Shown: positions 24,226-43,681 of the stretch, in pieces | How positions within the stretch are numbered: position 1 is the first letter of the stretch | Layout: every line of letters starts with the position of its first letter | Assembly: GCA_027306755.1 (NCBI GenBank) | Contig: DAHUZE010000102.1 | Span: 1 to 64,000 of the forward strand | Source of the DNA: Acidimicrobiaceae bacterium | Lineage (GTDB): Bacteria > Actinomycetota > Acidimicrobiia > Acidimicrobiales > RAAP-2 | Direction of reading: 5' to 3' | Length of the DNA stretch: 64,000 bases | Made by a program: the position numbers and the translations under genes | The notes under the pieces: model-generated | What the model was told of the DNA's origin: nothing | The model's input: the letters and a program-made list of their open reading frames with translations, nothing else | The model's database searches: none

Positions 24226-24321
24226 GCGTCTCGGCCGCAACCCTGGGCCACCGCCGCCGCGGGGCAAGGCGACGGCGCCAAGCCTGAGACCAGCTACTTC
24301 GTCTTTTTTTGCGCCGTTCGA

Positions 24322-24327
24322 TAGTGT
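24322..24327 (+). promoter_or_regulatory. Candidate -10 (TAGTGT) for ctaC
   Basis: TAGTGT ends eight bases before GTG 24336, and no Shine-Dalgarno sequence is visible. A T7 run lies about 15 bases further upstream. Confidence 0.4.
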
Positions 24328-24335
24328 CCCAGCCC

Positions 24336-25301
24336 GTGGACCAGTCGCCCGCCGGCACCCCCCTTTCCACAAACCGGGACGCGGCCGTAGCAGGGTCGCC
24401 GGCCGCTCCGGCGGCCGCCGGCGAGCCAGCCCCGGCACCACGGCCCCGCCGGTCCCGCTGGCTGGGCGCGGCCGTCCTCGCCGTGGGCGGCCTGCTGCTG
24501 GCCGGGTGCCAGATCCCGACCTTCTCGGCCACCAAGCCCACCACGACCCAGGGCCAGGACGCCATCAAGCTCTGGCAGGGCTTCTTCATCGCCGGGGCGA
24601 TCGTCTTCGTGATCGTCTTCTGCCTGATCGCCTGGGCGGTGTTCCGCTACCGCCGGCGCTCGGACGCCATCCCCCAGCAGACGCAGTACCACACGATCCT
24701 GGAGATCGTGTACACGGCCGTGCCCGTGGTCATCGTCCTCGTACTGTTCGCCTTCACCTTCGTGACGGAGAACAACGTGGACGCCCTGCCGGCGCCCAGG
24801 CTCACCGTGACCGTCACCGGGTTCCAGTGGGGATGGCGGTTCCACTACACAACAAAGAACGTCACAGTGATCGGCGTGGAACTGCAGGATCCCCAGATGG
24901 TGATCCCCGTCCACGAGGCGGTGCGCATCAACCTGCAGTCCCATGACGTGATCCACGGCTTCTACGTGCCGGCCTTCGACTTCAGCCGTTACGCCCAGCC
25001 CGGGATCATCAACAAGTTCACCATCACGCCCCAGAGCACGGGCACATACCACGGCCAGTGCACCCAGTACTGCGGGCTCTACCACTCGCTGATGCGGTTC
25101 CGGGTGAAAGTCGTCTCGGCCACCCAGTTCGCGGCCTGGGTCAGCACCCACCACTCGTCCGGCCCGCAGAAGTCCGTGCCGACAGTGGAGCGGCGGGCCC
25201 TCGGCAAGTCGACACCGAGCTCGACCGCCACACCCAACTCGAACGCGTCGACGCACACATCCACGGCCGCCACATACCAGACAGGGAGCACAGGCCTGTG
25301 A
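24336..25301 (+). CDS. ctaC: Cytochrome c oxidase subunit II
   Basis: This 321-residue membrane-anchored subunit takes electrons from cytochrome c through its CuA centre. LLLAGC near residue 50 is a lipobox, so it is a probable lipoprotein. Two transmembrane helices follow. The CuA domain has FQWGWRF, the first His in [11 protein letters not shown], and [16 protein letters not shown], giving two Cys, His and Met. The usual Glu between the cysteines is Gln. A Thr/Ser-rich tail follows. The GTG start is chosen by position; the stop overlaps ctaD (GTGA). Confidence 0.93.
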
Positions 25302-38257: not shown

Positions 38258-39343
38258 GTGACCGGACCCGCCAGCTCCCGCGCCGACTCCGGTGCCCCGG
38301 CAGAGGCACCCCTCGTGCGGGCGTGCCTCTGCCATCCCGTGCCCCATACCCCGGTGTGGTTCATGCGCCAGGCCGGCCGGTCTCTGCCCGAGTACCGGGC
38401 GGCCCGGGGGGCGGGAAGCATCCTGGAGGCCATCGCCGACCCCGCCCTCGCGGCCGAGCTGACGCTGCAGCCGGTCCGCCGGTACGGCGTGGACGGGGCG
38501 GTCCTCTTCTCCGACATCGTGGTGCCGCTCCACGCCGTGGGGTTCGGGGTGGACGTGGAGCCGGGCCGGGGCCCGGTGGTCGCCCAGCCGGTCCGTTCGA
38601 TGGCGGACATCCGGCGCCTGCGGCCGTTCGAACCCGACGACGACGCGCCCTATGTGGGCGAGGCAGCGCGGCTGGTGGTGCGCGAGCTGGGGGGTCGCGT
38701 CCCGCTGATCGGCTTCGCCGGCGCCCCGTTCACCGTGGCCAGCTACCTGGTGGAGGGCGGCCCGTCACGCACCTTCGCCAAGGTCAAGTCGCTCATGCAC
38801 GGCAACCGGGCGGCATGGGACGAACTGGTCGACCGGCTGGCCGGGATGGCCATCGCCTCGCTCGCCGCCCAGGTGCGCGCCGGTGCCACGGTGGTGCAGG
38901 TGTTCGACAGCTGGGCCGGCAGCCTCTCGCCGGACGAGTACGCGCGCTTCGCCCTGCCGGCGACCGCCCGGGTGCTGGCCGCGGTGGCCGAGCTGGGGGT
39001 CCCGTCGATCCTCTTTGGCGTCGGCACGGGCGAGCTGCTGGGGCTGATGGCGTCGGCCGGCCCGCAGATGGTGGGCATCGACTGGCGTGTCCCGCTGGAC
39101 GAGGCCCGGCGGCGGGTGGGGGTCGGGCGTGCCGTGCAGGGGAACCTGGACCCCGCCGTCTGCCTCGCCCCGTGGGAAGTGGTGGCCACCGAGGCCCGGA
39201 CCGTCCTGGCCCGGGCCGGCACCGCTCCCGGGCACGTGTTCAACCTCGGGCACGGGGTCCTGCCGGAGACGGATCCGGGGGTACTGTCCGCCCTCGTGGA
39301 GCTGGTGCACGCCGAGGGTCGCGCCGGGGTGGAGCTCCCGTGA
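38258..39343 (+). CDS. hemE: Uroporphyrinogen decarboxylase
   Basis: This 361-residue TIM-barrel enzyme removes four carboxyls from uroporphyrinogen III to give coproporphyrinogen [17 protein letters not shown] is the family signature with substrate-binding Arg. The catalytic Asp lies in [15 protein letters not shown], the [13 protein letters not shown] segment is conserved, and [11 protein letters not shown] is the C-terminal signature. GTG 38258 is the apparent start without a clear Shine-Dalgarno sequence. The stop overlaps hemH (GTGA). Confidence 0.95.
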
Positions 39344-40338
39344 CGAGCCGGACGCCCACCGGCGTGCTGGTCATGGCCCATGGGACCCCCGCCCGTGCCG
39401 AGGAGATCGAGGCCTTCTACACCCGCATCCGGCGGGGACGACCCCCCACCCCGGAGCTGCTGGCCGACCTCTGCCGGCGCTACGACGCCATCGGCGGCAC
39501 CTCGCCACTGGCCACCCGGACCGAGGCGCAGGTGGAGGGTATCGCCCGCCGGCTGGAGGACCTTGCGCCCGGCCGCTACGTCGTCCGGTTCGGCGCGAAG
39601 CACACCGCCCCATCCATCGAGGACGCGGCGGCGGGGCTGGCTGGGGGGGCGCCAGCGGGGGGGGCGGGCAGCGGCCTGGCGGCCGTGGTGGGCATCGTCC
39701 TCACGCCGCACCGCGCGTCGATGGGATCTGACGAGTACCTGGACCGCGCCGAGGCGGCCCTGGCTGGCGCGGGCGGGCCCCCGTTCGTCCGGGTCCCCCA
39801 GTGGTACGACGCGGTGGGGTTCGCCCCGCTGATGGCCGAGCGGCTCATGGCTGCCTTGGGCCGGGTCAAGGAGGCAGGCCAGCCCACCGTCCTGTTCACC
39901 GCCCATTCCCTCCCGCAGCGGGTGGTGGCCGCGGGCGACCCGTACCCCGCGCAGGTGGCGGACTCCGCGGCCCGGGTGGCCGACGCTGCAGGGCTGGCGC
40001 TGGCGGGCGTGCCCTGGGCCGTCGCCTGGCAGAGCGCGGGCCGCACCGCCGAGCCGTGGATCGGGCCGGATCTGCTGGCTGAGCTCCGGCGGCTGGCCGC
40101 CAATGGAGTGCCGGCCGTGGTTGTGTGCCCCATCGGGTTCGTTTCCGACCACCTGGAAGTGCTCTTCGATGTGGACGTGGAGGCCCGCCAGGTCGCGGAC
40201 GAGGTGGGGCTGGTGCTGACCCGCACCGCGTCGCTCAACGACGACCCCTCCTTCCTCTCCCTTCTGGCTTCGGTGATCCATGAGGCTGCCGAGGGCACGA
40301 GCGGTGTCGCAGGGAGTGCCGGTGTCGCCGGTGGCTGA
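39340..40338 (+). CDS. hemH: Ferrochelatase (coproporphyrin-type expected)
   Basis: This 332-residue class II chelatase inserts Fe2+ into a porphyrin. VLVMAHGTP is the N-terminal motif, and [10 protein letters not shown] carries the catalytic histidine. [20 protein letters not shown] supplies the conserved Glu/Asp pair. GTG 39340 overlaps the hemE stop. With the hemY gene next door, it probably acts on coproporphyrin III in the Gram-positive route, not on protoporphyrin; that is inference from lineage. A Gly/Ala-rich loop (about 105-112) and a Gly/Ala-rich tail are non-conserved. Confidence 0.93.
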
Positions 40339-41968
40339 CCATCACCCGGCGCGGCCCGTCGTGGTGGTGGTCGGTGGTGGCATCGCCGGACTGGCCGCCG
40401 CCTGGGAGCTGACGGGGGGTGCCGAGAGACCGGAGCCGGGCACCGCACAGGGGTCGGATCCCGGCGCTGCGTGGACGGCCGGGTCGCCGAAGGTTGTCAT
40501 GGTGGAGGCAGCCGATCGGCTGGGCGGGAAGCTGCATACGGTGGCGGTGGGAGGCCGGCCGGTGGACGTGGGGCCCGACTCCATGCTGGGCAGGCGGCCC
40601 GAGGCGGCCGCTCTGTGCCGCGAGGTCGGCCTCGGCTCGACACTGCAGCCGATCGGGGCGTCCGGCGCTGCCGTGTGGGCCCGCGGCAAGCGTCGGCCGT
40701 TGCCGTCCGGACTGTTCCTCGGTGTGCCGACCCGGCTGCTCCCGGTCGCCCGGTCCGGGATCCTCTCGCCGCTCGGCACCGCCCGCCTGACCGTGGACCT
40801 CCTCTTCCCGCGCCCGGACCGCAGGGGACCGCTGGGCGACCGCGCCATCGGACCCCTCGTGACCCGCAAGCTGGGCCGCCAAGCGGTCGAGCGGCTGGTC
40901 GAGCCGCTCCTGGGCGGCATCTACGCCGGGGGAGTGTCCGACGCCAGCGCGGCTGCGGTGCTCCCGCCTCTGCTCGAGGTCTCTCAGGGCCGCGCCAGCT
41001 TCATGCGCTCGATGGGCCGCCTGGCCCGCTCCGGTACCGCCGTTCCCGGCCCGGCGCCCGGACCACCATCTGCCGAGAGCCCACAACCGGCGCCGGAGGC
41101 GGCGACTCCCCTCGCCGACGTGCCTGCGCCCGCGTTCTGGGCCCTCCATGACGGTTTTGCATCGCTGGTCGACCGGCTCGTTTCCGCCTTGACCGGGCGC
41201 GGCGTGCGCATCGAGACGGGGTGCGCCGCCTCTGCGCTCGCCAGGGACGGCCAGCGTTGGCGTGTGGAGACGACTCTCGGGACCATCGAGGCCGACGGGG
41301 TGGTGCTGGCGGTCCCGGCCGGTCCTGCCTCGTTGCTGCTGGCGCCGCTGGACGCGGACGCCGCTTCCCTGCTGCAGACCGTCACGTATGCCCCGGTGGC
41401 GGTCGTGACCCTCGCCTATCCGGTTGGCGCGCTGCCCAAGGACCTGCACGGCACCGGACTTCTCGTCCCCAAGGGCACGCCGCTGCCCGCCGTGTCGGCC
41501 GCATCGCTGGGCGCGCCGGACGGGGACCGGTGCATGGTCACGGCCTGCACCTACCTGTCGACGAAGTGGCCACACCTGGCCCGACCGGGCGAGCTCCTGG
41601 TGCGGGCGTCGGTGGGCCGGCACGGCGACGACCGCTTTGCCGCCCTGGACGACGACGCTCTGGCGAGCCGGGTGGCCGGTGAGCTGGCCGGCTTGCTGGG
41701 GACCGAAACCCGCCCGTCGTCCACGCTCGTGACCCGCTGGCCCGACGCGCTGCCCCAATACCGGGTGCACCACCTGCTGCGAGTGGGGGGCGTGGAGTCC
41801 GCAGTCCGCCGCCTGGGCGCCCTGGGGGTGGCGGGGGCGGCTTACCGGGGCGTGGGCATCCCGGCCTGCATCGCCTCGGGCCGTTCCGCAGCCCGTGCCG
41901 TCCTCGAGCACCTGCGCGGAGGCGTTGGCGACGCCGCGACCGCCGGGGTGACCCAGCCGGCCCCCTGA
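40322..41968 (+). CDS. hemY: Coproporphyrinogen/protoporphyrinogen oxidase (HemY/CgoX-type)
   Basis: This flavoprotein of about 548 residues oxidises coproporphyrinogen III (or protoporphyrinogen IX) with O2. The FAD-binding VVVVVGGGIAGLAAAWEL is near the N-terminus, followed by EAADRLGGKLHTV and PVDVGPDSML. The C-terminal FAD segment is YRGVGIPACIASGRSAA. GTG 40322 is preferred for GGGAG five bases upstream and overlaps the hemH end by 17 bases. It is somewhat longer than usual because of Pro/Ala-rich insertions around residues 25-45 and 240-265. Confidence 0.9.
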   Translation: MSPVADHHPARPVVVVVGGGIAGLAAAWELTGGAERPEPGTAQGSDPGAAWTAGSPKVVMVEAADRLGGKLHTVAVGGRPVDVGPDSMLGRRPEAAALCREVGLGSTLQPIGASGAAVWARGKRRPLPSGLFLGVPTRLLPVARSGILSPLGTARLTVDLLFPRPDRRGPLGDRAIGPLVTRKLGRQAVERLVEPLLGGIYAGGVSDASAAAVLPPLLEVSQGRASFMRSMGRLARSGTAVPGPAPGPPSAESPQPAPEAATPLADVPAPAFWALHDGFASLVDRLVSALTGRGVRIETGCAASALARDGQRWRVETTLGTIEADGVVLAVPAGPASLLLAPLDADAASLLQTVTYAPVAVVTLAYPVGALPKDLHGTGLLVPKGTPLPAVSAASLGAPDGDRCMVTACTYLSTKWPHLARPGELLVRASVGRHGDDRFAALDDDALASRVAGELAGLLGTETRPSSTLVTRWPDALPQYRVHHLLRVGGVESAVRRLGALGVAGAAYRGVGIPACIASGRSAARAVLEHLRGGVGDAATAGVTQPAP

Positions 41969-42103
41969 GGACGCCGCCCCGAAGAGCCCCGGTGGGACCC
42001 GGTGAGCGTCGTGAGCCCAAGACCCCCGGTGGAACCGGACCAGGCGCGGCCCACCCGGCCCACCCGGCCCGGTCGACGAGCCGCTCCGTGGCACGATGAC
42101 CCC

Positions 42104-43681
42104 GTGATGCCGCGCCGGGGCCGCGTGCTCGTCCCCTCGCTTGCGGCCGGGCTCCTCCTCGCGTTCTCGCTGCCGCCCTGGGGATGGTGGCCGCTCGCGT
42201 TCGCCGGTGCCGCCGTGCTCTTCGTCCGGCTCCAGGGGCTCAGGCTGCGATCCCGGGCGCTGGCCGGCTGGGCAGCCGGGATGGGGTGCTTCGTACCCGG
42301 CCTGTGGTGGGCGGCGTCCTTCAACTGGTACGGCGCAGCCGTGCTGATGGCGGCCGAGTCGCTCTTCCTGGCCACCGCCGCGGTGCTGGTCCCGCCGCAG
42401 CGATGGCGCAGCCCGGCCTTTGCCGGGGCGTGCACCCTGCTGGAGGCGGCCCGCATGACCTGGCCGTTCGGGGGCCTTCCACTGGGCGGCATCTTCCTGG
42501 GCCAGGCCGGCGGCCCGCTACTGGGCGCAGCCCGACTGGGCGGCCCACTGCTGCTGACTGCGCTCGTATGGCTGGGGGGTGCCGGGATCGGCTCGCTGGC
42601 ACTTGCCGCCCTTGGCGCACTTGGCGCACGGAGCCGCGCCAGGGCCGGCACGAATCCCGGCACGAATCCCGGCACCAACGCCAACCCGGGCTCCACCCCC
42701 ACCAGGGCGATCTCAGGGGCGCTCTCCTTGGTGGCGGTGTTCGCTGCGGCAGCCGCCGGGGCGCTGGCGCCTGCGGGAGGCCCGCGGGTGCGCACGCTGA
42801 CCGTGGCGGCCGTCCAGGGCGGCGGGCGGCGGGGCACCACGGCGGCCCAGGTCGACCCGACTGCGGTGTTCAACGCCCAGGTGGCTGCGACCGGCCGTCT
42901 GAACGGCCGGTCGCAGCCGGCACCCCGGCTGGTGGTGTGGCCCGAGGACGTCATCGCCCTCGGGCCCCGGCTCGCCGGCACGCCCCAGGCCGCCCGGAGG
43001 GCGGCCATCGCCCGCCGGTTGGGAGCCACGGTGGTGGCAGGCGTCACCGAGGCCGTCTCCCCCACCGCCTTCCGCAACCAGGCGGTGGTGTGGGGACCGG
43101 GCGGCCAGGTGGCCGGCGTGTACGAGAAGGTGCACCGCGTGCCGTTCGGCGAGTACGTGCCCGACCGGTCGTTCTTCGCCCACTTCGCCAGCCTCTCGGC
43201 CGTGCCCCTGGACGCCATCCCCGGCCGGAGCACCGGCGAGCTGCGAACGGCCGCCGGCCGGATCGGCGTCATGCTCTCCTATGAAGTCTTCTTCGCCGGG
43301 CGGGGCCGTTCGGCCGTGCGTGCCGGGGCGGAGCTGCTGGTGGTGCCGACCAATACCGCGTCCTACGCCTCGAGCCAGGTGCCGGCTGCCGAGGTGGCTG
43401 CGGACCGCGTGCAGGCCGTGGAGGAGGGCCGCGATCTGGTGCAGGCGGCCCCCACCGGCTACTCCACGGTCGTCACCGCGACCGGCGCCGTGGAGCGCCA
43501 GAGCACCCTCGGCGCCCGACAGGTCCTGGTGGCCACGGTCGGCCTCCGCACCGGCGCCACCATGTACGAGCAGCTGGGCGATCCTCCGGTGCTGGCGCTG
43601 GCGGCGGTGGGCACCGCGCTCGGCGCGGCCACCCTGCTCGCCGACGGCCGGCGGCGGCGGCGGCGGCCCGCTCACTCGTAG
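42104..43681 (+). CDS. lnt: Apolipoprotein N-acyltransferase-like protein with Cys-to-Ser substitution
   Basis: This protein of about 525 residues has an N-terminal multi-helix membrane part (residues 10-225) and a nitrilase domain, the Lnt layout. Lnt N-acylates the N-terminal cysteine of lipoproteins. The catalytic Glu281 (VVWPEDVI) and Lys342 (YEKVHRVPFGEYVP) are present, but the nucleophile position reads LSYEVFF. It has Ser392 (TCC at 43277-43279) where Lnt has Cys in a CYE motif. GTG 42104 and ATG 42107 are both possible starts, and no Shine-Dalgarno sequence is visible. A Gly-Thr-Asn-Pro repeat links the two domains. Confidence 0.85.
   Translation: MMPRRGRVLVPSLAAGLLLAFSLPPWGWWPLAFAGAAVLFVRLQGLRLRSRALAGWAAGMGCFVPGLWWAASFNWYGAAVLMAAESLFLATAAVLVPPQRWRSPAFAGACTLLEAARMTWPFGGLPLGGIFLGQAGGPLLGAARLGGPLLLTALVWLGGAGIGSLALAALGALGARSRARAGTNPGTNPGTNANPGSTPTRAISGALSLVAVFAAAAAGALAPAGGPRVRTLTVAAVQGGGRRGTTAAQVDPTAVFNAQVAATGRLNGRSQPAPRLVVWPEDVIALGPRLAGTPQAARRAAIARRLGATVVAGVTEAVSPTAFRNQAVVWGPGGQVAGVYEKVHRVPFGEYVPDRSFFAHFASLSAVPLDAIPGRSTGELRTAAGRIGVMLSYEVFFAGRGRSAVRAGAELLVVPTNTASYASSQVPAAEVAADRVQAVEEGRDLVQAAPTGYSTVVTATGAVERQSTLGARQVLVATVGLRTGATMYEQLGDPPVLALAAVGTALGAATLLADGRRRRRRPAHS
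42647..42682 (+). repeat. 12-bp tandem repeat inside lnt
   Basis: Two exact and one degenerate copy of a 12-bp unit starting GGCACGAATCCC encode a Gly-Thr-Asn-Pro linker between the membrane and nitrilase domains. Confidence 0.85.

Follow-up and report, generated by a model that had tools for sequence, protein, structure and literature searches.

The window analysed here, a 64,000-nucleotide stretch of contig DAHUZE010000102.1 from an Acidimicrobiaceae bacterium, carries an open reading frame (ORF) for a homologue of the membrane acyltransferase Lnt with serine at the position of the catalytic cysteine. Lnt is the enzyme expected to attach a third fatty acid to lipoproteins. The features considered below are:

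42107..43681, plus strand: membrane acyltransferase homologue of the Lnt type, nucleophile position occupied by Ser, 524 aa
42146..42580, plus strand: membrane domain, Pfam LNT_N (E 1.6e-16)
42920..43546, plus strand: nitrilase-like domain, Pfam CN_hydrolase (E 4.9e-13)
42944..42946, plus strand: codon of catalytic Glu280 (E. coli Glu267), from homologue alignment
43127..43129, plus strand: codon of catalytic Lys341 (E. coli Lys335), from homologue alignment
43151..43153, plus strand: codon of Glu349 (E. coli Glu343, essential there), conserved at 100% in all three groups
43277..43279, plus strand: TCC codon of Ser391 at the nucleophile position (E. coli Cys387), read directly
43283..43285, plus strand: codon of Glu393 (E. 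coli Glu389, essential there), from homologue alignment
43391..43393, plus strand: codon of Glu429, nucleophile +38 (E. coli active-site His425), from homologue alignment
24288..25301, plus strand: CtaC-like lipoprotein ORF with lipobox LLAGC, from a lipobox scan

The presumed start is ATG 42107, in a reading frame open from GTG 42002, and Ser391 is numbered from this ATG. The gene order hemE-hemH-hemG-lnt (window positions 38258-43681) is kept in close relatives only, where Nuo genes lie beyond it on the opposite strand. Those relatives of the source genome that carry names are metagenome bins of Acidimicrobiales and other actinobacteria.

The protein scores 161.5 bits against the NCBIfam Lnt equivalog TIGR00546 (cut-off 132.9), and the Pfam, model and PDB matches agree on the two-domain architecture of Lnt, with LNT_N and a nitrilase-like domain in the Lnt fold. 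In the AlphaFold2 model (mean pLDDT 94.7, pTM 0.94; input of 78 proteins), all of the top 24 PDB matches are Lnt chains (24/24), with TM-scores to the query of 0.73-0.81. Model confidence is lower in the linker joining the membrane and nitrilase domains, which contains a short repeat, TNPGTNPGTNANPGSTP (42650-42720).

A preliminary description of this DNA had placed Ser at 43277-43279 within a nucleophile motif SYEVFF and had judged the Glu (VVWPEDVI) and Lys (YEKVHRVPFGEYVP) motifs intact. These readings hold: TCC is read directly in 'catgctctcc tatgaagtc', the nucleophile motif reads as given, and the other two motifs contain Glu280 and Lys341, the equivalents of Glu267 and Lys335. In E. coli Lnt, the essential residues also include Glu343, Tyr388, Glu389 and Trp237 of arm 7. 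The counterparts of the first three are Glu (100%), an aromatic residue (Tyr, Phe or Trp) and Glu (100%); the Glu393 column holds Glu in 100% of both Ser groups and in 94% of the Cys group, and the arm 7 region of the window protein reads QGGGRRGTT. At the position of catalytic Cys387, the residue that forms the thioester acyl-enzyme, the window protein and its whole clade have Ser. Since this Cys is one defining feature of canonical Lnt, we file the protein as a Ser-nucleophile sister variant rather than a plain member. The phmmer alignment brings Ser391 onto Cys387 without a gap, and the model puts it at a strand-to-helix elbow (strand 384-388, helix 391-395); a nucleophile elbow has been described for E. 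coli Lnt (PMC5500888), and the modelled placement of Ser391 is as expected for an elbow of this type. A shifted Cys nucleophile was considered and rejected, as no conserved Cys able to replace the nucleophile occurs anywhere in the window clade alignment.

The distribution of the two residues was followed in 203 distinct actinobacterial Lnt proteins, sampled at ranks from genus to phylum. The nucleophile column holds Ser in 112, Cys in 91 and no other residue; Lys is invariant, and Glu is found in every row bar one with a gap there. The order-wide clade of the window protein has Ser in 78/78, with invariant Glu and Lys. In the first alignment Ser was likewise present in every order-level Lnt except L005, a second paralogue. 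Genomes were tallied over the fetched loci, which comprise the hits above the cut-off in the order-level sample and part of the genomes in the class and phylum samples. By this tally the order has 62/63 genomes with Ser-Lnt only and 1/63 with both forms. In the remaining orders of the class, 32 genomes have Ser-Lnt alone, 39 have Cys-Lnt alone and no genome has both; elsewhere in the phylum, 45 have Cys-Lnt alone and 2 have both. Three single-contig genomes of the window's order (G038, G042 and G086) each hold one over-cut-off Lnt, with Ser. Beyond the substitution in BCG_2279c, nothing on a Ser-Lnt that is lineage-wide or the only Lnt was found in the open-access literature. Adaptation to acid habitats is disfavoured as an explanation, Ser being found also in L044, L047 and L048, from relatives with non-acidic sources to judge by bin names alone.

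The source genome, a 2.55 Mb draft, encodes four CN_hydrolase proteins, of which the window protein alone exceeds the Lnt cut-off. A second lnt, for which the preliminary description had proposed a search, was not found, the other three proteins all falling below that cut-off, but the genome is only 82% complete, so a hidden Cys-Lnt is possible. Lgt and LspA are present in the source genome and in nearly all relatives. The Lgt match here (G000:C87:28880-29440) and in same-genus genomes ends at about position 184-208 of the 240 in the Pfam model, which suggests that the C-terminal part of Lgt has diverged in this genus. CtaC, named earlier as a lipoprotein, does carry a lipobox and is a likely substrate of the pathway; the more tentative mention of LivK is unsupported, because the scan of the window proteins gave no other match. 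No Lnt is detectable in three near-complete genomes of the same order (G020, G073 and G157), and Lgt is present in the two that were checked (G020 and G073). Some family members lack Lnt altogether, and for these the step is dispensable.

Trees were built without the nucleophile column, and again also without column +38. They require four Ser/Cys changes, and a topology that confines every Ser protein to one side is rejected (p-AU 1e-146). The question of whether Ser is lineage-wide is answered: it is order-wide and, as the trees indicate, Ser has at least three origins. Ser proteins fall into three groups, namely the window's own order-wide clade, a second clade in Acidimicrobiia, and the pair L165/L168. 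The window clade groups with Cys enzymes of the lnt-ppm1 type, a locus identified by its downstream ORF, with support of 100/98. L165 and L168 are placed among Cys enzymes, and their genomes also hold a Cys-Lnt gene that has an ORF for a Ppm1-type glycosyltransferase downstream of it; because this layout is that of mycobacteria, the pair is probably of the BCG_2279c type. A common Ser origin with that type is rejected along with the single Ser clade, insofar as L165/L168 are its presumed equivalents. Two Cys proteins, L096 and L101, are nested in the second Ser clade and carry its CPxxxC arm, so that Ser and Cys look exchangeable there. This looks like a reversion to Cys, although a tree in which the Ser members make up a clade that excludes both is not rejected (p 0.34). 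The second clade (L105, L206, L214 and 29 other loci) has a conserved Cys pair, QGNSPCPxxHC, at -149 and -144 from the nucleophile in the arm 7 region, retained in L096/L101; it possibly forms a disulfide or supplies another thiol close to the active site.

Close Ser pairs give dN/dS values of 0.05-0.39. Within the window clade, Ser is invariant at a median pairwise identity of 42% (minimum 27%), and four or more times the Ser codon has crossed from one of the boxes TCN and AGY to the other. Single-base paths between these boxes pass via Cys or Thr, which suggests that selection kept the residue while its codon moved. The surroundings of the nucleophile differ as well. Column +38, that of E. 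coli His425, holds His in 69/91 Cys-Lnt and in 0/112 Ser-Lnt; Ser-Lnt have Glu or Gln there in the window clade and mostly Leu or Phe in the other Ser groups. Since the lnt-ppm1 Cys relatives, with Gln or Leu, already lack this His, its loss probably came first in the lineage of the window. His425 has been proposed to help the nucleophile (PMC5500888). The independent contrasts number only about three, so the association between Ser and loss of His is a correlation alone. The window clade also has QGGG fixed at -154 to -151, Arg at +8 in 98% and EVFF at +2 to +5.

Based on these data, we lean towards the view that the window protein is the resident Lnt, a Glu-Lys-Ser acyltransferase that N-acylates lipoproteins through an oxyester acyl-enzyme. 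Glu280 would activate Ser391, to which a membrane phospholipid would donate an acyl chain, and the resulting oxyester acyl-enzyme would be stabilized by Lys341; the acyl group would then be passed on to the lipoprotein amine, yielding the N-acylated lipoprotein. We infer catalysis by Ser because of the constraint on this residue, and the oxyester intermediate and the lipoprotein-amine acceptor are likewise putative. To our knowledge, no triacylated lipoprotein has been described from Acidimicrobiia. The broader proposal, a natural Glu-Lys-Ser class in the thiol-based nitrilase superfamily, with at least three switches, oxyester N-acylation and a retuned His425 position, seems to us an evenly balanced one. 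Engineered E. coli Lnt C387S still forms the acyl-enzyme (PMC3850990, PMC5500888) and does not complete N-acylation, its oxyester being too stable (PMC5500888); one study found low activity (PMC10313180). BCG_2279c, a homologue in which Ser occurs naturally, fails to substitute for BCG_2070c (PMC3850990). As C387S is engineered and BCG_2279c is independently derived, neither decides the matter for a Ser-adapted lineage.

The preliminary description had left three options, namely an inactive protein, a serine ester or a different role. The serine ester is favoured here, though unproven, and a different role has its place beside it as a changed acceptor, the chief rival to lipoprotein N-acylation. 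The protein would then be an Lnt-derived serine membrane acyltransferase or lipase that passes its acyl-serine to another amine, a hydroxyl or water. Oxyesters donate poorly to amines (PMC5500888), the Lnt relative AatD uses an N-terminal glycine as acceptor (PMC7943197), and the Ser clade has remodelled residues of its own in EVFF, R +8 and QGGG. However, genomes that retain Lgt and LspA have Ser-Lnt as their single-copy Lnt, the window clade is grouped with lnt-ppm1 enzymes, and we found no shared non-lipoprotein gene neighbour of Ser-Lnt beyond the family, so that we regard a changed acceptor as unlikely, if a serious contender. Less probable still is a catalytically dead protein retained for a structural or chaperone role, such as holding diacylated lipoproteins. 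Streptomyces scabies Lnt2 is reportedly subsidiary and not directly involved in N-acylation, and a contributive role has been suggested for BCG_2279c (PMC3850990), but a dead enzyme would be expected to drift to Ala, Gly or Thr at the nucleophile, seen in 0/203, and the second active Lnt that it might assist is usually absent from these genomes. Decay is disfavoured by the fold, the invariant Glu, Lys and Ser, the dN/dS values, the Ser-or-Cys-only column and the presence of Lgt and LspA. A sequencing, assembly or alignment artefact has a negligible probability: the source is indeed a draft metagenome-assembled genome, but a sequencing error at 43277-43279 is excluded because independent assemblies agree on Ser at the genus, family and order levels; this residue recurs in dozens of them and in the three single-contig genomes, and the alignment to Cys387 is gapless.

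The Ser swap in Lnt is old, strictly kept and of several origins, and the enzymes that carry it probably work via serine. The Lnt cysteine is regarded as essential, and the engineered Ser mutant is used as a trapped or nearly dead form. If Glu-Lys-Ser catalysis is correct, a bacterial order dependent on Ser would demonstrate that Lnt can do without the thioester and would provide a natural nucleophile switch in a superfamily whose members are described as thiol-based, with a bearing on Lnt inhibitor design and on the prediction of triacylated lipoproteins. In a single class, Ser and Cys forms stand in for one another, which makes the question testable by two-way swaps.

With the E. coli and P. 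aeruginosa Lnt, the window protein has in common the two-domain architecture, the fold, the Glu and Lys of the triad and the equivalents of Glu343 and Glu389; it differs in Ser for Cys387 and Glu for His425, at about 22% identity. The clade nearest to its own in the tree is the lnt-ppm1 lineage of MSMEG_3860 and BCG_2070c, the proven N-acyltransferases of mycobacteria (PMC3850990). In both clades the nucleophile is followed by an aromatic residue and Glu, positions +23, +25 and +51 hold Pro, Asn and Arg, and His is missing from +38, whereas lnt-ppm1 enzymes keep Cys and QGNV and the window clade has Ser, R +8, P +58 and QGGG. AatD (PMC7943197) is also an Lnt-derived acyltransferase, N-acylating an N-terminal glycine, and unlike the window protein it keeps the catalytic Cys and has another acceptor and another genetic setting. 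BCG_2279c, or Rv2262c-Rv2261c (PMC3850990), resembles the window protein in having Ser at the nucleophile with Glu and Lys kept. It represents a separate Ser origin, with L165 and L168 as likely equivalents, and shares its genome with a Cys-Lnt, whereas the Ser-Lnt of the window's order is usually the sole Lnt.
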